Assembly (NCBI RefSeq): GCF_003987395.1
Contig: NZ_PIPT01000001.1
Location: 372,001 to 436,000, forward strand
Source: Pseudidiomarina aquimaris
Lineage (GTDB): Bacteria; Pseudomonadota; Gammaproteobacteria; Enterobacterales; Alteromonadaceae
Direction of reading: 5' to 3'
Length of the DNA: 64,000 bases
The position numbers and the translations under genes are program-made. Below, piece after piece: positions 10,866-56,324 of the stretch (positions are counted from its first letter, which is position 1; every line of letters begins with the position of its first letter). The notes under the pieces are model-generated. The model was not told where the DNA came from and ran no database searches. It was given only the letters and a program-made list of their open reading frames with translations.

Positions 10866-12224
10866 TTAACCGCGGCCTTGACGTGCCTCACGGAGAGAAT
10901 CTGCCACCAAGAATGCTAGTTCTAAAACTTGGTCGGCATTCAAACGCGGATCGCACTGCGTACGATAGCGTTGCGTCAAATCTTGTTCACTAATCTGATA
11001 TGCACCACCGGTACACTCAGTTACGTCTTCGCCCGTCATCTCTAAATGCACGCCACCTGGGTAAGTGCCTTCCGCTTGATGAACTGCGAAGAACTGGCGT
11101 AACTCCTGATGTATGGCGTCAAAATTACGGGTTTTCAAGCCATTTTCGGCTTTTACCGTGTTGCCATGCATCGGGTCGCTAGACCAGACCACGTGACGAC
11201 CTTCGCTTTTTACTTTGCGCACAATTGCTGGCAAAGCAGCGGCTAGATTATCGGCGCCCATACGCGTAATAAAGGTCATACGACCTGGTTCGTTTTCTGG
11301 GTTCAACGCATCTAACAGCGCAATAACGTCATCAGGTTTAGTGGTCGGACCTATTTTAACACCAATTGGGTTATGAATGCCACGCATGAACTCAATATGC
11401 GCATGATCCAACTGGCGCGTCCGTTCGCCTATCCACACCATATGCGCCGAACAGTCGTACGGTAGCCCGGTTAGCGTGTCAGTGCGTGTTAGTGCTTCTT
11501 CGTAGGGTAGCAACAAAGCCTCGTGAGAGGTAAATAGCTGCGTTTCATGAATCGTCGCGTTAGTATCTGCAGTAATACCCACAACTTCCATGAACTTTAG
11601 CGCTGACTGAATCTGCTCAGCCACCTGTAAATACTTGTCTTTAAGCGGGTTTGCGGCGACAAAACTCATATTCCACTTGTGCACTTTATGCAAATCGGCC
11701 AGGCCACCTTGCGCGAACGCGCGCAGCAAGTTCAACGTTGCCGCCGAGTGGTGATAGGCTTGCAGCATCCGTTGCGCGTCTGGCACGCGCGCCGCTTCAG
11801 TAAATTCAGGACCGTTGATGATATCCCCACGATAACTAGGTAAGGACACACCATCGATGGTCTCAAGATCACTTGATCGTGGTTTTGCATACTGCCCTGC
11901 CATACGCGCCACTTTAGTGACCGGACACGAGCCAGCGAAAGTTAAAACAATCGCCATTTGCAGAATCACTTTAAAAGTGTCACGAATTTTCGGTGCATTA
12001 AAATCGGCGAAAGACTCGGCACAGTCGCCGCCTTGCAACAAAAATCCCTGCCCTTGACTCACTTGGCCTAACTGCCGTCTCAGCGCACGAATTTCTTCGG
12101 CAAAAACCAACGGCGGGAACATTTTTAATTGTTGTTCAACGTTGCTTAGCTGCGCGGGGTCTGGGTAATTCGGCTGTTGTTGGATCGGTCTATCGCGCCA
12201 ACTACGCGCACTCCAGTTTGTCAT
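10866..12224 (-). CDS. Class II (plant-type) 3-deoxy-7-phosphoheptulonate synthase
   Basis: DAHP synthase condenses PEP and erythrose 4-phosphate, the first step to chorismate and the aromatic amino acids. The 452-residue protein is of the class II type seen in plants, Mycobacterium and some proteobacteria, unrelated in sequence to E. coli AroFGH. Family-typical stretches are [11 protein letters not shown] near residue 63, GQYAKPRSS near 110, [12 protein letters not shown] near 258 and [15 protein letters not shown] near 400. The ATG has AAAGGA 6 nt upstream. It lies between htpX and the DUF1338 gene on the same strand. Confidence 0.92.
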
Positions 12225-45193: not shown

Positions 45194-45835
45194 TCAGGCT
45201 TCTGCATCAGGCTGCTTACTGGGGTGCGCAGCAGCCACAAAGGGTAACTCTACTAAACGTTCATAAACCCCCATCAAGATGGGGTAGTCATCAAGCTTAA
45301 TACCGAAACGTTGTGCGCTGAAGACCTGTGGGACCAAACACACATCAGCCAAACTAAACGTATCGCCAACGCAATAGGTATCAGCAACTTCTTCCAGGTT
45401 TTTCTCGAAAGCGCTAAAACTCTCGGCAAACCAATGATCCAGCCAAGCTTGCTTCTGGGCGTCTGTTACCTCGAGCTCTTGTTTTAAGTATTGCTGCACA
45501 CGCAAATTAATAAGTGGCTGTAACTCACTTGCTAAATCGAGCGCGAGCGCTCGAATAGCGCCCCGTTGACGGGGTGAACCGGGTAATAGGCTAGGTTCCG
45601 GATGCTTGTCTTCAAGATACTCAATGATCGCCAACGACTGATGCAAAATCACCTGCCCATCAACTAACGTTGGAACCAGGCCATTTGGGTTCAATTGCCG
45701 ATAAGCACGTTGGTGCTGCTGTCCGCCATCTTTAAGCAAATGAACTGGCAAATAGTTGTAGTCGAGCTCTTTAAAGTTTAGTGCAATACGTGTGCGATAA
45801 CTGGCGCTTGAGCGCCAGTAACCATAGAGTTCCAT
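45194..45835 (-). CDS. maiA: Maleylacetoacetate isomerase (zeta-class GST)
   Basis: MaiA isomerises maleylacetoacetate to fumarylacetoacetate with glutathione, the penultimate step of tyrosine breakdown. The 213-residue protein has the zeta-class motif RSSASYRTRIAL at residue 8, LNPNGLVPTLVDG near 48 and LADVCLVPQVFSAQRF near 164. It is the last gene of the hpd-hmgA-fahA-maiA operon, 24 nt after fahA. Confidence 0.93.
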   Translation of the reverse strand: MELYGYWRSSASYRTRIALNFKELDYNYLPVHLLKDGGQQHQRAYRQLNPNGLVPTLVDGQVILHQSLAIIEYLEDKHPEPSLLPGSPRQRGAIRALALDLASELQPLINLRVQQYLKQELEVTDAQKQAWLDHWFAESFSAFEKNLEEVADTYCVGDTFSLADVCLVPQVFSAQRFGIKLDDYPILMGVYERLVELPFVAAAHPSKQPDAEA

Positions 45836-45859: not shown

Positions 45860-46879
45860 TTATTCAGGCTTATACTGTACGACCTTTTGGTCAATACTGC
45901 CAAAAATACTCTTTCCATCGGCGTCTTTCATTTCCATTTTAATGGTATCGCCAAACTGCATAAATCCTGTTGCTGGCTTACCATCACGGATCGTCTCGAT
46001 CATCCGCACTTCGGCAATACAGCTATAGCCAACGCCGCCTTCGCTTATTGCACTGCCGTGATCGGTGCCCTGCTTGTTGGATACCGTTCCTGAGCCGATA
46101 ATAGCGCCGGCACTTAAGTGACGGGTTTTCGCCGCATGAGCGACCAATTGTGCGAAATCAAACGTCATGTCTTCGCCGGCATTAGGTTTTCCGAAGTCGT
46201 TGCCGTTATAAACACTCAGCAGCGGTAAATGCACTTTGTTATCACGCCACGCATCGCCTAGCTCGTCTGGCGTCACTGCAACTGGCGAGAACGCTGAGGA
46301 TGGCTTCGATTGGAAAAAGCCAAACCCTTTGCCCAATTCATTCGGAATCAAGCCACGCAATGACACATCGTTCACCAACATTAAGAGCCGTATGTATTGC
46401 CCTGCATCGTCGGCGCTAACGCCCATGGGTACGTCATCAGTGATGACCGCAACTTCGCCTTCGAAGTCGATACCCCATGACGTGTCGGCCATTTCGATAT
46501 CATCCTTCGGCCCAAGAAAATCGTCCGAGCCACCTTGATACATAAGTGGATCGGTCCAGAAGCTCGGTGGCATTTCAGCATTCCGCGCACGGCGCACGAG
46601 CTCAACGTGGTTCACGTAAGCACTACCATCAGCCCATTGATACGCACGCGGTAAAGGTGATTCACACAGACTCTCATCAAATGTGACAGCATCGCTAAGC
46701 TCGCCGCTGTTGAGTGCGGCGTAAGCCTTTTCTAATTCTGGCGCGAGGCCTTCCCAGTCATCAAGAACTTCCTGTAAGGTCGCAGCCAACGCTGGAACCG
46801 CAACAGCTTTCGTAAGATCACGACTGACCAACATGAGTTGACCATCGCGTGTACCATTTCGATAGGTTGCAAATTTCAT
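45860..46879 (-). CDS. fahA: Fumarylacetoacetate hydrolase
   Basis: FahA splits fumarylacetoacetate into fumarate and acetoacetate, the last step of tyrosine breakdown. The 339-residue FAH-fold protein is of the shorter type common in Vibrio and Shewanella; the metal-binding residues lie in WGIDFEGEVAVITDDVP near 145 and the conserved GSGTVSNKQGTDHGSAI near 262. It is 3 nt after hmgA. Confidence 0.9.
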   Translation of the reverse strand: MKFATYRNGTRDGQLMLVSRDLTKAVAVPALAATLQEVLDDWEGLAPELEKAYAALNSGELSDAVTFDESLCESPLPRAYQWADGSAYVNHVELVRRARNAEMPPSFWTDPLMYQGGSDDFLGPKDDIEMADTSWGIDFEGEVAVITDDVPMGVSADDAGQYIRLLMLVNDVSLRGLIPNELGKGFGFFQSKPSSAFSPVAVTPDELGDAWRDNKVHLPLLSVYNGNDFGKPNAGEDMTFDFAQLVAHAAKTRHLSAGAIIGSGTVSNKQGTDHGSAISEGGVGYSCIAEVRMIETIRDGKPATGFMQFGDTIKMEMKDADGKSIFGSIDQKVVQYKPE

Positions 46880-46882
46880 AAA

Positions 46883-48028
46883 TTATTTAGCCTTTTCGTC
46901 TTTTGCTTGCCAACTGTATACATAGTCCGGATTTTCTACTCCGGCACAAACCTCACCCATTTCAAGTGGGTTGCGGGTATCGAGCATCACCGCAACTTCA
47001 TCGGTGAACTTTTTGCGATACTCTAGGCCAGCTTGGAATGCTTTTGGATGCGGGCCATGGGTAAAGCCTGCCGGGTGGAAGGTTACCATGCCTTTATCAA
47101 TGTTATCACGGCTGAAAAAGTCGCCTTCGTGATAGAACAGCACTTCATCGTAATCGTCGTTGTTATGATAGAACGGCACTTTCAAAGCACCCGGGTCAGA
47201 TTCGATCGGGCGCGGTACAAAAGTGCAGACCACAAAGCCATCGGCTACAAAAGTTGTATGGGCCGAAGGCGGAAGATGATAACGATGGCTCATTAATGGA
47301 CGGATGTCGCGCCAATTGATACGTACCGGCGCTAAGTCACCATGCCAGCCCACCGCGTCTAACGGATTAAACGGATAGGTGATCCGCGAAACCTTACCAT
47401 GACGCTTTACTTCAACCTGCCATTCTTCTTCGCTGTATTGTGCTTTAAAGGCTTCATCAATGTCAGGCGTATCGAGGCACGCCGGATCAAAGATCGCATG
47501 GTTACCAACGAGGCCTTTTTCGGGCAGTTGGTAGGCGCCATTAGTCGCCTCAATCATCACAACTTGTAACGGTTCAATAGGCTCTAAGCGCCATGAAGTT
47601 GAGCGCGGAATACTAAAATAATCACCTTTTTCAAGTGTGATATGCCCGTAATCACAGAACAGCTCAGTACGACCTTCATGAATGAACAACAGCTCGTCAC
47701 CATCGGCATTACGGACGAGAAAATCCATTTTTTCGCTGCAGTGCCAAATACGGAATTTACACTGCGTATTATGCAGCAGCATAGGCACTTGCCACGGTGA
47801 CGCCGTGGCTACATTATCAAGTTTGTTAAAGTCGAAGTTCCGCGGGCGTAGATCCCCTTCCCACTCGCTCCAACCCGTTGGGGCATGGCGATGATGAAAG
47901 TGCGTAGCTGGGCCAAAAAAACCACTACGCCCAACTTCACGTTCATAGATCGCCTGCTCCGGGAAGTCCGCATGCGCCTGTTTCGACGTCACACCGACTT
48001 GCTTCGGAAAGCTGATCCATTTACGCAT
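46883..48028 (-). CDS. hmgA: Homogentisate 1,2-dioxygenase
   Basis: HmgA opens the ring of homogentisate with O2 and Fe(II). The 381-residue protein is the shorter bacterial form; it shows LFIHEGRTELFCDYG near residue 132, VLFYHEGDFFSR near 317 and the histidine-rich FHPAGFTHGPHPKAFQ near 333, which supply iron ligands. The start overlaps the hpd stop by 8 nt, so the two are probably translationally coupled. Confidence 0.9.
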   Translation of the reverse strand: MRKWISFPKQVGVTSKQAHADFPEQAIYEREVGRSGFFGPATHFHHRHAPTGWSEWEGDLRPRNFDFNKLDNVATASPWQVPMLLHNTQCKFRIWHCSEKMDFLVRNADGDELLFIHEGRTELFCDYGHITLEKGDYFSIPRSTSWRLEPIEPLQVVMIEATNGAYQLPEKGLVGNHAIFDPACLDTPDIDEAFKAQYSEEEWQVEVKRHGKVSRITYPFNPLDAVGWHGDLAPVRINWRDIRPLMSHRYHLPPSAHTTFVADGFVVCTFVPRPIESDPGALKVPFYHNNDDYDEVLFYHEGDFFSRDNIDKGMVTFHPAGFTHGPHPKAFQAGLEYRKKFTDEVAVMLDTRNPLEMGEVCAGVENPDYVYSWQAKDEKAK

Positions 48029-49097
48029 CGCTTAGCACTCCTCGACGGATTTGATCTTCTTCAATTGATTCAAACAAGGCCTTGAAATTACCTTCACCAA
48101 AGCCTTCGTTGCCTTTACGCTGAATAATCTCAAAGAATACTGGACCAATCACCGTTTGGGTGAAGATCTGTAATAAAATACCGTCTTTCATCGGTGCACC
48201 ATCGATGAGGATCTGCAGCTCGCGAAGTTCATCAACGTTCTCTTCGTGGCCTTCCACGCGCTCATCGATCTTCTCGTAGTAAGTATCAGGCGTTGGCATG
48301 AAATCCATACCGATTTTGCGTAAGTCACGAACTGTCTGATAGATGTTGTCTGAAGTCAGGGCAATATGCTGGATCCCTTCACCTTTGTACTCGCGCAGGT
48401 ACTCTTCGATTTGTGACTTGTCATCATGAGATTCGTTGATTGGAATACGAATCTTGCCACAAGGCGCGGTCATTGCGCGGCTCAACAAGCCTGTCAACTT
48501 ACCTTCAATGTCGAAGTAACGAATTTCACGGAAATTACCGATACGCTCGTAGAAGCCTGCCCAGGTATCCATATTGCCGCGGAAAACGTTGTGCGTTAAG
48601 TGATCAACTTCATATAAACCGGCAGCGTGCTCACGCATTTTTTCTTCCCAGTTATCGTAGAAGTCGAAGTCATCGGCGTAAACGCCTTGGCCTTCATAGT
48701 TATCGATGAAGTAAAGCACGCTTTCACCGATACCATAAACGGCTGGAAAATCAGCTTCGTTGGCGCCTAGCTGACGTTGAAATGGCTTTGCGCCATTTTC
48801 GACCGCATGTGCAAAAGCATGTTTTGCGTCTTTTACGCGCCACGCCATACCACACACGCTCGGGCCATGGTCTTTGGCAAACGCTTCGGCCTGACCGCCG
48901 GTTTCAGCATTGACGATGAAATTAATGTCATTTTGCTTGTATAACCAAGCTTCTTTTGTTTTGTGCTTGGCTACTTCGGTGAAGCCCAACTTGTCGAACA
49001 GATCTTTGAGCGCCGCGATACCTTCAGCATTAGGCGCTGTATATTCAACAAACTCAAAGCCATCGGTTTGTAGTGGGTTATAGTTAATGTCAGTCAT
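48021..49097 (-). CDS. hpd: 4-hydroxyphenylpyruvate dioxygenase
   Basis: Hpd converts 4-hydroxyphenylpyruvate, made from tyrosine by transamination, to homogentisate. The 358-residue two-domain VOC protein carries the iron ligands in VDHLTHNVF near residue 162, GIQHIALTSDNI near 241 and VFFEIIQRKGNEGFGEGNF near 323. It is the first gene of the hpd-hmgA-fahA-maiA operon. Two TyrR-box-like sites lie 140-220 nt upstream. Confidence 0.95.
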   Translation of the reverse strand: MTDINYNPLQTDGFEFVEYTAPNAEGIAALKDLFDKLGFTEVAKHKTKEAWLYKQNDINFIVNAETGGQAEAFAKDHGPSVCGMAWRVKDAKHAFAHAVENGAKPFQRQLGANEADFPAVYGIGESVLYFIDNYEGQGVYADDFDFYDNWEEKMREHAAGLYEVDHLTHNVFRGNMDTWAGFYERIGNFREIRYFDIEGKLTGLLSRAMTAPCGKIRIPINESHDDKSQIEEYLREYKGEGIQHIALTSDNIYQTVRDLRKIGMDFMPTPDTYYEKIDERVEGHEENVDELRELQILIDGAPMKDGILLQIFTQTVIGPVFFEIIQRKGNEGFGEGNFKALFESIEEDQIRRGVLSDA

Positions 49098-49238
49098 TCT
49101 GTAGTCCTCGTTCTTGCTACGCCAGTATTCGCCATGGCGGTAGCGAATGGGTTTGTAATACCCTAAGTTCTACTATGGGACTGTGAGAAGTGCCAGTGAC
49201 ACGATGGAGATAGTCCTGCACCCCTATGATGAGTTATT

Positions 49239-49256
49239 TGTAAAGGTTTTGATACA
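49239..49256. promoter_or_regulatory. Candidate TyrR box 1 upstream of hpd
   Basis: TGTAAA-GGTTTT-GATACA matches TGTAAA-N6-TTTACA at 10 of 12 positions and keeps the essential G and C separated by 14 nt. It lies 142 nt before the hpd ATG. Confidence 0.55.
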
Positions 49257-49300
49257 GATCAATCAATTTGCAGAATGCTTGAGCAGATCGACGAATACAC

Positions 49301-49318
49301 TGTAGCTAAACAGTTACA
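49301..49318. promoter_or_regulatory. Candidate TyrR box 2 upstream of hpd
   Basis: TGTAGC-TAAACA-GTTACA matches the TyrR box at 9 of 12 positions with the essential G and C conserved. Its start is 62 bp from box 1, about six helical turns, so two dimers could sit on the same DNA face. Confidence 0.5.
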
Positions 49319-49346
49319 TTCGCCGACCCTTGTCGTCAAGATATCT

Positions 49347-50918
49347 TTACTTATTGGCAGTTTTGGTGGTTTTCCGACGCTGCTTGCCGATACCATAATC
49401 ACGCAATTTATTTGCCACAGCGGTGTGCGATAGCCCTAGTTTTTTCGCTAATTGACGGGTACTTGGGTAGCTCGGGTACAAACGTCGCAAAATCGTTGCT
49501 TCAAACTTTTTCACCGCTTCGTCCAAACTACCTTCTTCGAGATCGACCGCAACATTTTCCTGCAGCGCCCCCGCCTCAGGTAGGTGCAAGTCATCCGCGC
49601 TCAGGCGTTCACCCTCAAGCATCGATACCGAGCGGAACAGCACGTTTTCTAATTGACGCACATTACCCGGCCACTGATAGCGTTGTAGTAGCTCGCGGCA
49701 ATCGGCCGTCAACAACACCAAGCTACGGCCTAAGCGCTGACACGCCTGCAAGGTGAAATGGTCTGCTAACAAGGGAATATCGCTCTTGCGTTCGCGTAAT
49801 GGCGGCAATAGTAACGTCAGCACATTCAAGCGATAATAAAGGTCTTCGCGGAAGTTGCCCGCTTCGACGCGCTCCAAAAGGTCATCCCGCGCAGAACAAA
49901 TAATCCGCACATCAACGGTAACCTCAGCCTCTTCACCGATGCGGCGAAACTTGCCATCTTGAATAAAACGTAACAGCTTTGCCTGCAAACCATTGGACAT
50001 CTCACCGACTGCATCAAGCAGCACGGTACCGCCATTAGCTTGCTCAAAAATGCCCTTTTTGGCTTCGGTATGCGGGCCTAAACTGCCTTTGCCGTGACCG
50101 AACAATTCACTTTCGGCGACGTTATCCGGCAAGGCTGCGCAATTCACTGCAAGAAACGGCTGCTCAGCGCGCGGACTCGCTTGGTGACAGGCGCGGGCTA
50201 AGAGTTCCTTACCGACACCTGTTTCGCCTTGAATTAGCAACGGCACGTTCAATTCAGCCATGCGACGCGCTTCTTTGATCAGCTTGCGCATACTGGCATG
50301 CTCACCCAACAGTTGATGGAACGCATCGTGCTGACCGGTGCGCTGCCACTGCTGACTCAAAGGTTGCGGTTTACAGGTCAAAACGGCTCCAGCAAAGCTG
50401 GTGGCCTCATGCTCATCTTTGACCCAAATTGGCATCAGCTCAGCGAAATATTTCGCACCATTAACGGTGACTTGCGTGGTATGCGGTTCGGTCGGCTCAC
50501 GCTCTAACCAGCGTTGCACATTAAAGCCACTTAACCATTGGGCTATGGCTGTGCCTGGCAAATGTTGACGGGTATCAGACAGCAACAGCACAGCAGCATC
50601 ATTGGCAATATCTATGGTGCCTTTGGCATCGACTGACAAGACAGGATCAGGAAGCTTATTAAGCAGCAGGCTGAACTCGAAATGCTCGCGTTCGGACGGC
50701 ATAAAAGCGACAGTTTTGACGTCTTTTACATTCGGAATACGACGTATTTCCGGCATTAAATGCTGAAAGTCTTTGAATTCTAACTCAGGGAAATTGAGGA
50801 AGATTTTCCCTTTCGGATCCACTTCGATACCGCGAAGATCAATTTCACGGTCGCGTAAAATCTGCAAAACATCTTGGCATAAGCCCAAACGGTCATCACA
50901 AGTAATCTCGAGACGCAT
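49347..50918 (-). CDS. tyrR: Aromatic amino acid regulator TyrR
   Basis: TyrR senses tyrosine or phenylalanine and ATP and activates or represses aromatic amino acid genes. The 523-residue protein has an N-terminal ACT domain (1-75), a PAS domain (about 80-190), an AAA+ domain with Walker A GETGVGK (231-237) and a C-terminal Fis-type helix-turn-helix (STRQLAKKLGLSHTAVANKL, near 490). The sigma-54 contact loop GAFTGA is replaced by GSLGPHT (278-284), as in E. coli TyrR. The Walker B is LLDAVGEM, with Ala303 where E. coli TyrR has glutamate. It lies between its likely target operons and has a strong TyrR box just upstream. Confidence 0.95.
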   Translation of the reverse strand: MRLEITCDDRLGLCQDVLQILRDREIDLRGIEVDPKGKIFLNFPELEFKDFQHLMPEIRRIPNVKDVKTVAFMPSEREHFEFSLLLNKLPDPVLSVDAKGTIDIANDAAVLLLSDTRQHLPGTAIAQWLSGFNVQRWLEREPTEPHTTQVTVNGAKYFAELMPIWVKDEHEATSFAGAVLTCKPQPLSQQWQRTGQHDAFHQLLGEHASMRKLIKEARRMAELNVPLLIQGETGVGKELLARACHQASPRAEQPFLAVNCAALPDNVAESELFGHGKGSLGPHTEAKKGIFEQANGGTVLLDAVGEMSNGLQAKLLRFIQDGKFRRIGEEAEVTVDVRIICSARDDLLERVEAGNFREDLYYRLNVLTLLLPPLRERKSDIPLLADHFTLQACQRLGRSLVLLTADCRELLQRYQWPGNVRQLENVLFRSVSMLEGERLSADDLHLPEAGALQENVAVDLEEGSLDEAVKKFEATILRRLYPSYPSTRQLAKKLGLSHTAVANKLRDYGIGKQRRKTTKTANK

Positions 50919-50943
50919 CGCTACTTCTTCATGAAACGGAAAA

Positions 50944-50961
50944 TGTAAACAATAGTATACA
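50944..50961. promoter_or_regulatory. Candidate TyrR box upstream of tyrR (autoregulation)
   Basis: TGTAAA-CAATAG-TATACA matches the TyrR box at 11 of 12 positions, with the essential G and C 14 nt apart. It lies 26 nt before the tyrR ATG, a position suited to repression. Confidence 0.7.
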
Positions 50962-50962
50962 C

Positions 50963-50994
50963 AAAAAAGCCTCTACCCGTCACTAGGTAGAGGC
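50963..50994 (-). terminator. Terminator of the mgl-phhA-phhB operon
   Basis: On the minus strand GCCTCTACC (50986-50994) and GGTAGAGGC (50969-50977) form a 9-bp stem with an 8-nt loop followed by six U residues (50963-50968). It ends the operon just upstream of the tyrR promoter region. Confidence 0.85.
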
Positions 50995-51025
50995 TCTTTA
51001 ATTCGCGTTTTGCGGCTAATGCACT

Positions 51026-51370
51026 TTATTCTGCGTCTAGTACTGCGTCGGTGCGCGCTGCCATAATGAAATCGTTTTTGTGCAGGCCATTGATAGCATG
51101 CGTCCACCACGTAACCGTCACTTTGCCCCACTCGGTAACTAGAGTCGGGTGATGAAATTCATCTTCTGCTATTTCACCTACACGATTAGTGAACGCCAAT
51201 GCCTTTTTGAAATTCTTGAACTTGAACTCACGTTCAAGCTGCATCACGCCATCGCGCGATACCGGCGTCCAATCAGGTATCTCGCGCATCAACTCCGCAA
51301 GCTCTTCGTCGCTCACTTTTGGGGCTTCTGCATTACATGCTTCACATTTTTGCTGTTTTAAATCAGACAT
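51026..51370 (-). CDS. phhB: Pterin-4a-carbinolamine dehydratase
   Basis: PhhB dehydrates the 4a-hydroxypterin made by phenylalanine hydroxylase so the cofactor can be recycled. The 114-residue protein has the family motif [21 protein letters not shown] (about residues 68-88). The N-terminus has a CEACNA pair of cysteines. I choose the ATG at 51370 (GGAG 7 nt upstream) over a TTG at 51382. It is 37 nt after phhA and is the last gene of the operon. Confidence 0.93.
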
Positions 51371-51407
51371 TTCTGACTCCAAATTGTCTTTACTGAAAAG
51401 AGTTTAC

Positions 51408-52202
51408 TCAAGCGGCGTCTTTGGGTGGGAACTTCGGCTCAAACAAACCGAGCTCCATCGCTTCGTGAACCAGCGCCATAATGTCGAGGTCAGCAATATC
51501 AAACAATTGCTCTGTAGACTCGAGAGTGTAGTAGATAGGTTGCATGATATCGATGCGGTACGGTGTACGCAGCGCATCAAGTGGCACTAAAGGTTTGCGC
51601 TCCGGCTTGTCGCTGTGAATTGCGTATTCTGTTTCACCTGGCGAGGAGAGAATACCGCCACCGTAGATGCGCAGCCCATCCGCAGTGTTCAGCAAGCCGA
51701 ACTCGACGGTAAACCAATACAAACGGGCCAAATAGACACGCTCTTTCGGTGTTGCATTAAGACCGAGCTTGCCATATTGATGGGTGAAGTGGGCAAACGC
51801 TGGGTTCGTCAGCAACGGGCAGTGACCAAAGATTTCGTGGAAGATATCTGGCTCTTGTAAGTAATCAAATTCTTCACGGGTACGAATAAAAGTTGCTACC
51901 GGAAACTGCTTGTTCGCCAAGAGTCGAAAGAACTCGTCGAATGGAATGAGTGCCGGAACTTGGGCCACTTGCCACCCCGTACTCGCTTCCAGAACTTCAT
52001 TTATTTCATGAAGTTGCGGAATACGATCTTGCGGCAAATCGAGTAACTCAAGGCCATGCATATACTCATCACAGGCCTTACCTGGAATATGTTTTAACTG
52101 GCGAGCAACCAAATCGCGCCATACCGCGTTCTCTTCGTCACTCCAGTCGATAATACCCGTGTCGTCTGGCTGGCGCGAAACGTATTGGCTTTGTTTACCC
52201 AT
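51408..52202 (-). CDS. phhA: Phenylalanine 4-monooxygenase
   Basis: PhhA hydroxylates phenylalanine to tyrosine with tetrahydropterin, O2 and Fe(II). The 264-residue monomeric bacterial form has the iron ligands in HEIFGHCPLL near residue 121 and the glutamate in YWFTVEFGLL near 166. Its ATG lies inside the end of the methionine lyase gene (8-nt overlap) with AAGGGGAA upstream, so it is probably co-expressed with it. Confidence 0.96.
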   Translation of the reverse strand: MGKQSQYVSRQPDDTGIIDWSDEENAVWRDLVARQLKHIPGKACDEYMHGLELLDLPQDRIPQLHEINEVLEASTGWQVAQVPALIPFDEFFRLLANKQFPVATFIRTREEFDYLQEPDIFHEIFGHCPLLTNPAFAHFTHQYGKLGLNATPKERVYLARLYWFTVEFGLLNTADGLRIYGGGILSSPGETEYAIHSDKPERKPLVPLDALRTPYRIDIMQPIYYTLESTEQLFDIADLDIMALVHEAMELGLFEPKFPPKDAA

Positions 52203-53457
52203 AAGTCAAAGGTTCCCCTTGTTGTTCTGTTTGTTCTGTTTGTTCTATCGTTTTTAGTTGTTGTGCTTTAGTAAATGCTTGTTCCAAATCTGCGATAATA
52301 TCTTCGACCGCCTCTAAACCTACTGAGATACGCACCAAGGTGTCGCTAATACCCGCTTTGGCACGGGCTTCTGGGGTATAAGGCGAATGCGTCATTGAAG
52401 CCGGATGCTGAATTAAAGTCTCGGCATCACCAAGACTCACCGCTATGGTGATAAGTTCTAAACTATCGAGTACCTGTCGCGCAGTTGCGATATCACCATC
52501 CAATTCAAACGCTATAACGGCGCCGGGGCCATGCATTTGCGTGCCCATAAGACGCTGTGCTGGATGCTCCGCCAACCCTGGATAGTAGATACTGCGCACC
52601 ATTTGATGCTGCTGTAAATAAGCGGCCACACGCATGGCATTGTTGCAATGTCGTTCCATACGCACATCAAGCGTTTTTAGACCACGCAAGATCAACCACG
52701 CATCATGCGGGCTCATCGTCGCCCCCATATCTTTCAGCGTTGTCATCTTAATCAATTCGATGTCTTCAGCGCTGCCACAAATGAGCCCTGCGACAACATC
52801 ACCATGCCCATTCAAATATTTTGTCGCACTGTGAATCACGATATCGGCACCCTGCTCGCGTGGACGCTGCAATAGGGGTGTCATAAAGGTATTGTCGACA
52901 ATCACCCGTGCTTGCTGACGGTGCGCGATTTCACTTACCGCAGCAATATCAATAATTTTCAGATGTGGATTCGCTGGCGTTTCAATAAATACCATTTTGG
53001 TATTACTACGCATCGCAGCAGCTACATTGTCAGCATTAGTCATGTCAACAAAGTCGACGCTAATGCCAAACTTGGCAAACAAATGTGAGAATAAGGCAAA
53101 GCTACAGCCATAGATGGCATCCGCCACCACTACATGATCACCTTGTTCTAGAAATGCCAACATCGCTGCTGATACTGCACCCATGCCCGTTGCACAAGCG
53201 GCACCCGCTGGATAGCCCTCGAGCTGCGCTATACGCGCTTCTAACTCGTCGGTGGTTGGATTACCTAAGCGTGAATAGATGTAGCCAGCTTCCTCGCCAG
53301 CAAAACGTGCAGAGCCCTGCGCCGTGTTTGAAAAAGCAAACGTCGCAGTCTGATAGAGCGGTGCAACCAAGGCGCCATGTTCATCACGCTGTTTACCACC
53401 GTGAATCGTCATCGTCGCTGGCTGCCATTGCGGTTTGTCGTTATGGTTATTGCGCAT
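52195..53457 (-). CDS. Methionine gamma-lyase-type PLP enzyme
   Basis: This 420-residue Cys/Met-metabolism PLP enzyme probably splits methionine into methanethiol, 2-oxobutyrate and ammonia. The PLP lysine is in HSATKYLNGHGDVVAG near residue 208. The cysteine in AIYGCSFALF near 115 is at the position of Cys116 of Pseudomonas putida methionine gamma-lyase, and KDMGATMSPHDA and HPASMTHSPYTPE also follow that enzyme closely. Cystathionine gamma-lyase or synthase is the alternative. The C-terminus has an EQTEQTEQ repeat. It heads the operon with phhA and phhB. Confidence 0.85.
   Translation of the reverse strand: MRNNHNDKPQWQPATMTIHGGKQRDEHGALVAPLYQTATFAFSNTAQGSARFAGEEAGYIYSRLGNPTTDELEARIAQLEGYPAGAACATGMGAVSAAMLAFLEQGDHVVVADAIYGCSFALFSHLFAKFGISVDFVDMTNADNVAAAMRSNTKMVFIETPANPHLKIIDIAAVSEIAHRQQARVIVDNTFMTPLLQRPREQGADIVIHSATKYLNGHGDVVAGLICGSAEDIELIKMTTLKDMGATMSPHDAWLILRGLKTLDVRMERHCNNAMRVAAYLQQHQMVRSIYYPGLAEHPAQRLMGTQMHGPGAVIAFELDGDIATARQVLDSLELITIAVSLGDAETLIQHPASMTHSPYTPEARAKAGISDTLVRISVGLEAVEDIIADLEQAFTKAQQLKTIEQTEQTEQQGEPLTYG
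52223..52246 (-). repeat. Short 9-nt tandem repeat in the 3' end of the methionine lyase gene
   Basis: The 9-nt unit TGTTCTGTT (plus strand) occurs 2.7 times and encodes EQTEQTEQ at the protein's C-terminus, just before the phhA ribosome site. Copy number could vary without frame change. Confidence 0.8.
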
Positions 53458-53485
53458 TGGCAGTTTTTCCTCCTTGCGTCGAGCA

Positions 53486-53504
53486 CTTTGTCGACATTAC
53501 AAAG
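53486..53504. promoter_or_regulatory. CTTTGT-N7-ACAAAG dyad upstream of the methionine lyase gene
   Basis: A perfect 6-bp inverted repeat with a 7-nt spacer lies 29 nt before the start codon of the methionine lyase gene. It could be an operator or part of a leader hairpin; no known regulator is assigned. Confidence 0.4.
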
Positions 53505-53526
53505 AGTGCATGCTGGCCATGCGCAA

Positions 53527-53554
53527 CGCAACTTGTCAGACTGACGAAGTTGCG
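53527..53554. other. Near-perfect 28-nt palindrome between pspC and the methionine lyase gene
   Basis: CGCAACTTGTCAG (53527-53539) and CTGACGAAGTTGCG (53541-53554) are complementary over 13 bp with one unpaired G at 53546 and a single central A. No U-tract follows on either strand. It may be an operator, or the end of the psp transcript acting as a non-canonical terminator. Confidence 0.5.
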
Positions 53555-53561
53555 CTGCGGG

Positions 53562-53579
53562 TGTAACGCAAATTTTCCA
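53562..53579. promoter_or_regulatory. Candidate TyrR box upstream of the methionine lyase-phhA-phhB operon
   Basis: TGTAAC-GCAAAT-TTTCCA matches the TyrR box at 10 of 12 positions and keeps the essential G and C 14 nt apart. It lies 105 nt before the start of the first gene of the operon, a distance suited to activation. Confidence 0.55.
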
Positions 53580-55226: not shown

Positions 55227-56324
55227 ATGCGTCGCTCAAGAGAAGCGGATAACCTTATCGGCGAGGCGAATAGCTTTCTCGCGGTCTTAGAACAAGTATC
55301 GCAAATTGCACCGCTCACCAAGCCGGTTTTAATTATCGGTGAACGTGGTACGGGTAAAGAGCTCATCGCTGCGCGTCTGCACTTTCTTTCCGAGCGTTGG
55401 GAACAAAGCTATGTGAAGCTCAATTGTGCGGCACTCAGTGAAAGCTTGCTAGAAAGCGAACTCTTCGGCCATGAAGCCGGGGCCTTTACCGGCGCACAAA
55501 AACGACATGAAGGACGTTTCGAGCGCGCCGACCAAGGCACACTTTTTCTCGATGAATTGGCTAATACCTCAGCGCTGGTGCAAGAAAAGATACTTCGCGT
55601 CATCGAATACGGTGAATTTGAGCGCGTCGGCGGTAGTAAAACCGTCTGTACTGACGTGCGTTTAATTGCCGCAACCAATGAGGATTTGCCAAGCCTTGCT
55701 GAGCGCGGTGAGTTTCGTGCCGATTTACTTGACCGTCTCGCCTTCGACGTCATTACCCTACCACCGCTACGTGAGCGTCGTGAAGATATCATGGTGCTCG
55801 CCGAGCATTTCGCCATTCAAATGGCGCGCGAGTTACAATTCGAGCTCTTCAGTGGTTTCACCGAACGCGCGAAAAAAGCGCTTCTAGATTACCATTGGCC
55901 GGGGAATATCCGTGAGTTAAAGAACGTAGTTGAACGTTCGGTGTATCGTCTCGGAAGCGGTGCCGTACCGCTCGACCACATCATCATTGATCCTTTCGCT
56001 AGCCCATGGCGCCCAAAAGCTGCGACGCACCGCAGTAAAACAACTGCCAATACAGGACGAGATTCAATAAGCGAAGTGTCCCATAATGCGGCGGAGAATG
56101 CGGCGGAGAATGCGACGGATAGCGCCGCAACAACTGTTGATTTCAGCAAAGGACCAATTGAGTTTAAAGACGCAGTGGCCAACTTTGAAACTGAAGTTTT
56201 ACAACAGGCGCTAAGCCATGCACAATTCAATCAAAAGAAAACTGCGGAAATGCTGGGGCTCACCTATCATCAATTACGTGGTTACTTAAAAAAATACTCA
56301 TTATTGGACGGGTCAACGAGCTAA
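55227..56324 (+). CDS. pspF: Sigma-54-dependent activator PspF
   Basis: PspF opens sigma-54 promoters of the psp genes and is held inactive by PspA. It has no N-terminal sensor domain. The 365-residue protein has Walker A GERGTGKE near residue 32, the sigma-54 contact GHEAGAFTGAQ near 84, Walker B GTLFLDEL near 107, and a Fis-type helix-turn-helix at the end (KKTAEMLGLTYHQLRGYLKK). It is longer than E. coli PspF (325) because of a linker of about 40 residues with AAEN repeats. Its stop is followed directly by the sapA ATG. Confidence 0.94.
   Translation: MRRSREADNLIGEANSFLAVLEQVSQIAPLTKPVLIIGERGTGKELIAARLHFLSERWEQSYVKLNCAALSESLLESELFGHEAGAFTGAQKRHEGRFERADQGTLFLDELANTSALVQEKILRVIEYGEFERVGGSKTVCTDVRLIAATNEDLPSLAERGEFRADLLDRLAFDVITLPPLRERREDIMVLAEHFAIQMARELQFELFSGFTERAKKALLDYHWPGNIRELKNVVERSVYRLGSGAVPLDHIIIDPFASPWRPKAATHRSKTTANTGRDSISEVSHNAAENAAENATDSAATTVDFSKGPIEFKDAVANFETEVLQQALSHAQFNQKKTAEMLGLTYHQLRGYLKKYSLLDGSTS
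56085..56120 (+). repeat. Three 12-nt tandem repeats in the PspF linker
   Basis: Two exact copies of AATGCGGCGGAG and a third with two changes encode NAAE repeats between the AAA+ domain and the DNA-binding domain of PspF. Confidence 0.85.

Follow-up and report, generated by a model that had tools for sequence, protein, structure and literature searches.

Introduction

TyrR control of amino acid breakdown has been predicted for Shewanella, where phhAB, hmgCB and mdeA are assigned to this regulator (PMC5343134, PMC3223726), and tyrR, phhAB, hmgABC and hpd are counted among the most conserved predicted members of the TyrR/PhhR regulons (PMC5343134). Here we describe the corresponding genes in a 64,000-nt stretch of DNA from Pseudidiomarina aquimaris (contig NZ_PIPT01000001.1, positions 372,001 to 436,000; hereafter the window), in which mgl-phhA-phhB, tyrR and hpd-hmgA-fahA-maiA form a block of eight genes on the minus strand, adjoining pspA and pspC. 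The gaps that head these three transcription units carry putative operators for the aromatic-amino-acid sensor TyrR, one of which is interlocked with a predicted site for the oxygen sensor FNR.

As in the predicted regulon of the Shewanellaceae, genes for the breakdown of phenylalanine, tyrosine and methionine would all be under TyrR in Pseudidiomarina (PMC3223726, PMC5343134). The two differ in that the Pseudidiomarina targets adjoin tyrR, that mgl heads the phhA operon, and that the hpd box shares bases with an FNR box; moreover, whereas HmgQ is the predicted regulator of hmgA-hpd in Shewanella, Pseudidiomarina instead has TyrR boxes before hpd-hmgA. The Pseudomonas PhhR regulon (phhABC, hpd) likewise relies on a TyrR-family activator of phhA and hpd (PMC5343134). 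The three-box array and the FNR overlap at hpd set Pseudidiomarina apart from it, in a comparison made by description. Enterobacterial TyrR regulons (Escherichia coli; akr-ipdC of Enterobacter cloacae; PMC4374768) share the box definition, the distinction of strong from weak boxes, repression by a box over the -10 and activation by one upstream of the -35; Pseudidiomarina, in contrast, has no box upstream of tyrA, pheA or class II 3-deoxy-D-arabino-heptulosonate 7-phosphate (DAHP) synthase, the three biosynthetic genes tested. Lastly, the FNR-type regulator ANR of Pseudomonas aeruginosa has been linked to repression of the same pathway through its effect on hpd/hmgA (PMC3963858, PMC4529145), possibly indirectly (PMC4529145), whereas in Pseudidiomarina the predicted site lies inside the TyrR box itself. 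Published predictions for other Gammaproteobacteria already place phhAB, the hpd/hmg genes and mdeA under TyrR; the overlap of a TyrR box with the candidate -10 of tyrR and the predicted FNR overlap at hpd go further, and the published, mostly predicted catabolic regulon is extended to Pseudidiomarina with site-level conservation.

Results and Discussion

TyrR boxes at the heads of the three units

A TyrR box was taken to be TGTAAA-N6-TTTACA with the essential G and C 14 nt apart, strong if at least 10 of the 12 positions match and weak if fewer do (definition: PMC4374768). By this measure the boxes at 49239, 50944 and 53562 are strong, and those at 49301 and 49334 weak:

49239 to 49256, minus strand: TyrR box A of the hpd operon, the main box, TGTATC-N6-TTTACA on the gene strand, 142-159 nt before the hpd ATG; kept in 26/26 genomes, conservation 0.955, rank 1/232
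49301 to 49318, minus strand: weak TyrR box B of the hpd array, lying 62 bp further upstream than A; outer TGTA/ACA kept, inner positions free
49334 to 49351, minus strand: weak TyrR box C of the hpd array, lying 33 bp further upstream than B, where it overlaps the end of tyrR; 3 mismatches in the window
50944 to 50961, minus strand: TyrR box of tyrR, TGTATACTATTGTTTACA, 26-43 nt before the ATG; 1 mismatch in 26/26 genomes
53562 to 53579, minus strand: TyrR box of mgl-phhA-phhB, TGGAAAATTTGCGTTACA, 105-122 nt before the mgl ATG; at most 3 mismatches in 25/26 genomes, rank 1/128

An earlier reading of the letters alone (the original prediction) had named four 18-mers, beginning at 49239, 49301, 50944 and 53562, as TyrR boxes in the intergenic gaps heading the three units. 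All four are present; they match at 10, 9, 11 and 10 of the 12 positions, keep the 14-nt spacing of the G and C, and do lie in the gaps before hpd (two boxes), tyrR and mgl. Within these three gaps (501 bp), 4 matches have at most 3 mismatches and 3 have at most 2, where shuffling the gap sequences gives expectations of 0.31 and 0.03; none of 5000 gap shuffles reached the observed count at either threshold.

We compared the orthologous gaps of the window and 25 relatives of the same genus (26 genomes, related to each other). As the original prediction had anticipated for genuine sites, the boxes are kept within the genus in all three gaps, and the flanks less so. The best box in the tyrR gap has 1 mismatch in 26/26 genomes, with all 12 positions invariant; that in the hpd gap has 1 mismatch in 4 genomes, 2 in 21 and 3 in 1 (26/26 at 3 or fewer); and that in the mgl gap has 2 in 17, 3 in 8 and 6 in 1 (25/26 at 3 or fewer). 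In alignments, mean identity over the 12 box positions is 1.000 at tyrR, 0.955 at hpd and 0.952 at mgl, against medians over all windows of 0.61, 0.50 and 0.61, which places each box first (of 90, 232 and 128 windows, respectively); their six inner bases are conserved less (0.70, 0.58 and 0.76). Five other matches in the neighbourhood were traced in the relatives as decoys. At 3 mismatches or fewer, those in coding sequence were kept in 4/21 (53740), 0/22 (55635) and 0/7 (52613) of the relatives covered; the match at 56186 was covered in one relative only, and kept there, and the one at 49334, covered in 3 relatives, proved to be box C.

Beyond the genus, near-consensus boxes stand at each of the three corresponding places in Aliidiomarina maris, the one on the mgl side being TGTAAAATTTAAGTTACA at -121. 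Among 15 relatives from the order outside the genus, the tyrR gap holds a box with at most 2 mismatches in 9 and only a 3-mismatch box in 2. A box with at most 3 mismatches precedes phhA in 9/9 order relatives in which phhA is first in its operon, and a box (2 and 3 mismatches) precedes hpd in 2/2 in which hpd adjoins tyrR. The gene block is shared by ten Rheinheimera-type loci (L095-L103, L107), 8 of them from Rheinheimera and 2 from metagenome-assembled genomes, in which phhA and tyrR are preceded by boxes. Together with the absences weighed below, the sequence support for TyrR boxes beyond the genus and Aliidiomarina is mixed.

Boxes A, B and C form an array before hpd. The site at 49301, put forward in the original prediction as one of its four boxes, is present and belongs to this array as B, with conserved ends (TGTA and ACA, 88-100% in 26 genomes), and proves to be a weak box only; box C (49334-49351) is a member of the array that had been missed. 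B and C were each taken as the best match in range, and the identical choice was applied to shuffles. At the position of B there are 3 mismatches or fewer in 10/26 genomes and exactly 4 in 13 more, with 4 in the two nearest relatives of the window; B at 4 mismatches or fewer is found in 23/26 (shuffles: mean 1.55, maximum 7) and C at 3 or fewer in 24/26 (shuffles: mean 0.06, maximum 2), and the two occur together in 21/26 genomes and in 0 of 300 shuffle rounds, a comparison to be read with the relatedness of the genomes in mind. B and A are 62 bp apart in the window and the two relatives nearest to it; of the remaining 23 genomes, 22 have 50-52 bp and one, L049, has 55 bp, no real box being seen there; C lies about 30-33 bp upstream of B across genomes. 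In Aliidiomarina maris the hpd array has 1, 2 and 2 mismatches at 0, 61 and 94 bp, the corresponding spacings in the window being 0, 62 and 95.

Candidate promoters

The boxes were set against the following candidate elements:

50954 to 50983, minus strand: candidate tyrR promoter, -35 GTGACG (50978-50983), 18 nt, -10 TATACT (50954-50959), from a consensus promoter scan
50968 to 50995, minus strand: hairpin, probable intrinsic terminator of mgl-phhA-phhB; its T-tract adjoins the tyrR -10
53505 to 53531, minus strand: candidate mgl core promoter, tentative, TTGCGT-N15-TGCACT, with its -35 centred 42 bp (4 turns) past the box; pattern picked by eye
49167 to 49196, minus strand: candidate hpd core promoter, tentative, CTGGCA-N18-TAGAAC, with its -35 centred 54 bp (5 turns) past box A; range set by eye

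The candidate -10 of tyrR lies inside the TyrR box, in its left arm, and the candidate -35 falls within the hairpin loop of the phhB terminator. This -10 is found in the same register in 26/26 genomes (TATACT in 24, TATATT in 1, TATAAT in 1); the -35 is weak and variable and is not conserved as TTGACA. The hairpin region (66 nt) folds at -26.7 kcal/mol, with a z of -5.5, and the terminator scan lists the hairpin on the plus strand only; the T-run ahead of the tyrR -10 is short in L035 and L055. By eye, TGAC or TTAT recurs in the hairpin loop of many relatives, and this loop may act as the tyrR -35. In E. cloacae, a TyrR box over the -10 of akr brings about repression (PMC4374768), and by analogy the geometry at tyrR would be repressive. 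A tyrR box covering what appears to be the -10 of its own gene, just past the probable phhB terminator, goes beyond published predictions.

Past the mgl box, the pattern TTGC(G/T/C)T-15-TGCA was found in 25/26 genomes, at 42-43 bp in 24 of them; the distance in L040 is unusable, the automated pick having taken the wrong box. Past hpd box A, CT-type -35 candidates lie at 53-55 bp in 25/26 genomes (none in L044). The ipdC gene of E. cloacae, which is activated by TyrR, has a strong box 33 bp (three turns) before its -35 (PMC4374768). With boxes about 4 and about 5 turns upstream of the candidate -35 elements, activation by TyrR is the likelier mode at mgl and hpd. We also considered a sigma-54 promoter for the mgl box and dropped it, inspection by eye having revealed no GG-N10-GC.

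Overlap with a predicted FNR site

FNR recognizes the consensus TTGAT-N4-ATCAA, and four cysteines hold the Fnr cluster. At hpd, a perfect match to this consensus interlocks with box A:

49249 to 49262, strand unassigned: perfect FNR box TTGATACAGATCAA, with 8 bp (49249-49256) in common with TyrR box A

We used TTGAT-N4-ATCAA as the search pattern, and TTGATACAGATCAA is the sole exact FNR palindrome in the window; the genome holds 12 exact copies, against 2 for the reversed control. It also encodes an Fnr that scores above its profile cut-off and carries CxxC-x5-C and a fourth Cys, such that the exact site and a four-cysteine Fnr are found together. The FNR box is exact, in the same register, in 15/26 genus members including the window, and in 15/15 of these the left arm of the TyrR box reads TGTATC: where the FNR box is present, both mismatches of box A are dictated by the ATCAA half of the palindrome. 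An fnr gene was found in 25/26 genomes, and the exception, P. aestuarii (G009), is also without the FNR box. P. homiensis has the FNR box and P. indica does not.

On a tree of TyrR, Hpd and HmgA, the distribution of the FNR box needs 4 changes, a number as low being reached in 1 of 500 shuffles. Its history fits a single gain, in a clade of 19 members (support 98/98), followed by three losses, although several forks of the tree are unresolved; the other 7 members, which fall outside this clade, carry just the TyrR box. Eight genomes have an additional FNR-like box near -80 before mgl (7 with 1 mismatch, 1 exact), and two others a 1-mismatch FNR-like box at -143; in the window, no FNR-like box was found before mgl near either position. 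Other exact FNR boxes in the genome lie between nrdG-nrdD and an unassigned open reading frame (ORF) and upstream of an OmpW-like gene that scores below its cut-off; the identical 14-mer recurs 312 bp before ccoN (L152:1501-1514). Some of the genes beside these boxes are typical FNR targets; a guess that nirK-like and norB-like genes also lay beside FNR boxes was not borne out on checking. Among the literature matches listed for TyrR or hpd/homogentisate together with Fnr or Anr, no title or abstract describes a TyrR/FNR overlap at hpd, and no paper was found on Pseudidiomarina and homogentisate.

Proposed mechanism and rival explanations

We consider it probable that TyrR genuinely uses these boxes as operators, in a local catabolic regulon made up of this block, and that hpd box A has also been recruited for FNR. 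This reading is built on the sequences, their positions, their conservation and the presence of TyrR and Fnr; from these we infer the binding, the ligand, the choice between activation and repression, the promoters and the effect of FNR, all of which are predicted. Conservation in 25-26 of 26 genomes thereby lends support to the claim of the original prediction that TyrR controls phenylalanine-to-fumarate breakdown and its own gene. TyrR with bound aromatic amino acids would occupy the -10 of its own gene, such that tyrR would be repressed, and TyrR on the boxes upstream of the candidate -35 elements (about 4 turns at mgl, about 5 at hpd) would activate mgl-phhA-phhB and hpd-hmgA-fahA-maiA, with a resulting flux from phenylalanine through tyrosine to fumarate. 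The hpd promoter would use the three-box array A-B-C, and the bases of box A would later have been recruited as an FNR box too.

Hpd, HmgA and PhhA require O2. In P. aeruginosa, expression of Hpd and HmgA is typically aerobic-only and is derepressed when ANR fails (PMC3963858); the repression of hpd/hmgA by ANR is possibly indirect (PMC4529145). On both grounds we prefer a reading in which, without oxygen, FNR competes with TyrR at box A and excludes it, and the O2-requiring pathway is switched off. A TyrR/FNR switch at hpd is plausible from the sequence, and the predicted FNR site could shut this pathway when air runs out. More specifically, we suggest, tentatively and with nearly balanced expectations, an AND-NOT gate at hpd: TyrR and FNR would compete for 8 bases (aromatic amino acid present, not anaerobic), in an arrangement that arose on an older TyrR box inside the genus and was lost in a few lineages, one subclade having acquired a second FNR-like box close to the phhA operon. 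Such a gate offers a mechanism for keeping O2-requiring aromatic-degradation enzymes off without oxygen, for which the available portions of the Pseudomonas reports give no site-level explanation; and, with genomes that have a TyrR box alone, both boxes, or an FNR box lost again forming a natural series, it can be tested directly how an existing operator gains a second input.

Several observations weigh against the reading of the boxes as TyrR operators, one of them shared with FNR. In the window, 28 matches with at most 3 mismatches compare with 29.5 expected, and 64 of 100 shuffles reach 28; in the genome, 94 matches with at most 2 mismatches compare with 97 for a reversed-pattern control. 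Equally good matches thus occur at the chance number over both, an outcome that the original prediction had named as speaking against it, so counts alone give no support. We dropped match counts as evidence for the boxes and let position and conservation decide, because match number alone proves nothing. The mgl box differs from the consensus at position 3 throughout the genus and is lost in Idiomarina loihiensis (L050), where the best match has 6 mismatches; a tyrR-gap box with at most 3 mismatches was not found in 4/15 order relatives, and the ten Rheinheimera-type loci have no box with at most 2 mismatches before hpd. Box B matches at 9/12 positions, and its 12-position conservation ranks 10 of 232. 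The hpd and mgl promoters are weak candidates, with patterns and search ranges chosen by eye, and the consensus promoter scan gave 2 hits in 4.7 kb against 5.5 in shuffles, the tyrR hit alone being not significant. As for FNR, the exact box is absent in 11/26 members, 10 of them with fnr; these 11 genomes have six kinds of arm, TGTATC in 4; the ccoN box overlaps a small ORF, and 4/12 of the exact FNR boxes lie inside long ORFs.

That the TyrR-box matches are chance occurrences in AT-rich gaps, as the window and genome counts would allow, is barely credible given that 0/5000 gap shuffles reach the observed number and that conservation holds in 25-26 of 26 genomes. Judged by motif and gene order, it is also very unlikely that another regulator of tyrosine breakdown uses the hpd sites: HmgS (MarR family) and HmgQ (LysR family) are predicted in related gammaproteobacterial lineages (PMC5343134), yet the same motif also heads tyrR and mgl, and tyrR is in the block in 26/26 genomes. 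More weight belongs to the view that the TyrR boxes are real and used and the FNR-like palindrome is a by-product of box A without a role, which we hold to be quite possible, if on the doubtful side. The 11 genomes that keep box A without an exact FNR box, and the TGTATC arm in 4 of them, indicate that half of the palindrome can stand alone. The gene-strand TTGAT, however, lies outside the TyrR box and is nonetheless exact, in one register, in 15 genomes; a palindrome with only 12 exact genome copies, a state clustered on the tree (4 changes, matched by 1/500 shuffles) and the presence of some other exact copies at typical FNR targets likewise speak for a function. Finally, FNR might activate hpd microaerobically rather than repress it, since the site lies at a considerable distance upstream of the candidate promoter, a position from which class I activators can work. 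We regard this as unlikely: the enzymes need O2, and the common 8 bp would exclude TyrR. The ANR reports from P. aeruginosa cited above, of aerobic-only Hpd and HmgA derepressed on ANR failure (PMC3963858) and of possibly indirect repression (PMC4529145), also point away from activation.

Extent of the regulon

The original prediction had called the regulon local, and this holds as far as tested: in the same genome, tyrA, pheA and class II DAHP synthase (the last at 10881-12215 in the window) have no TyrR box with at most 3 mismatches upstream. Class I DAHP synthase (AroFGH) had no match in 26/26 genus genomes; TyrA-type matches occur in 26/26 and PheA-type matches in 23/26, one of them a fragment. 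With class II DAHP synthase, TyrA-type and PheA-type matches present, no auxotrophy is claimed.

The genome has five 1-mismatch sites, of which only the one at tyrR heads an aromatic gene. Two of the other four are well inside ORFs, one falls at the 5' edge of an ORF for peptide deformylase with an unsure start, and the remaining one lies in the gap between two divergent genes, which encode a penicillin-binding protein and PilM. The 94 sites with at most 2 mismatches were sampled in part, six regions with 2-mismatch sites being looked at; one such TyrR-like site lies 14 bp before a gamma-glutamyltransferase ORF (L191:1612-1629), and the regulon may be wider than the block. A stricter 10-base core, TGTAA-N8-TTACA, tried for the wider regulon, gave 0 genome matches (control 1) and was unusable.

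Genes of the block

The genes were assigned by profile search:

45194 to 45835, minus strand: maiA, maleylacetoacetate isomerase; TIGR01262, 266.8 bits (cut-off 171.05)
45860 to 46879, minus strand: fahA, fumarylacetoacetate hydrolase; PF01557 and PF18288 above cut-off
46883 to 48028, minus strand: hmgA-like, short homogentisate 1,2-dioxygenase, 381 aa; PF20510, 56.3 bits, above cut-off; TIGR01015, 79.9 bits, far below 510.75
48021 to 49097, minus strand: hpd, 4-hydroxyphenylpyruvate dioxygenase; TIGR01263, 432.9 bits (cut-off 277)
49347 to 50918, minus strand: tyrR, TyrR regulator, 523 aa; NF008085, 660 bits (cut-off 576); TIGR04381 helix-turn-helix (HTH), 98.7 bits (cut-off 30); PDB 2jhe, 1g2h
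51026 to 51382, minus strand: phhB, pterin-4a-carbinolamine dehydratase; NF002016, 198.9 bits (cut-off 133)
51408 to 52202, minus strand: phhA, phenylalanine 4-monooxygenase; TIGR01267, 356.7 bits (cut-off 264.75)
52195 to 53457, minus strand: mgl (mdeA), methionine gamma-lyase, 8-nt overlap with phhA; TIGR01328, 564.2 bits (cut-off 549.7)

TyrR matches both the full-length TyrR model and the TyrR-type HTH, and is 97% identical to that of P. homiensis. Its N-terminal ligand-binding region matches residues 1-182 of PDB 2jhe (E 4.8e-54), and the Pfam ACT domain scores 25.9 bits, just below the 27-bit cut-off. The GAFTGA loop is a mark of sigma-54 activators; in this TyrR the position reads GSLGPH, and the loop is thus lacking. 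In HmgA (46883-48028), the Pfam N-terminal domain is the only domain detected, and the score is far under the NCBIfam hmgA cut-off.

The order mgl-phhA-phhB-tyrR-hpd-hmgA-fahA-maiA is kept in 25/25 same-genus genomes compared, the fahA match being partial in one (L053); a pspA/pspC match was not found in three of these 25 (L044, L051, L052). No mgl was found in 9 phhA-bearing loci from other genera of the same family or order; mgl (52195-53457) precedes phhA in 26/26 genus members, in Aliidiomarina and in the ten Rheinheimera-type loci.

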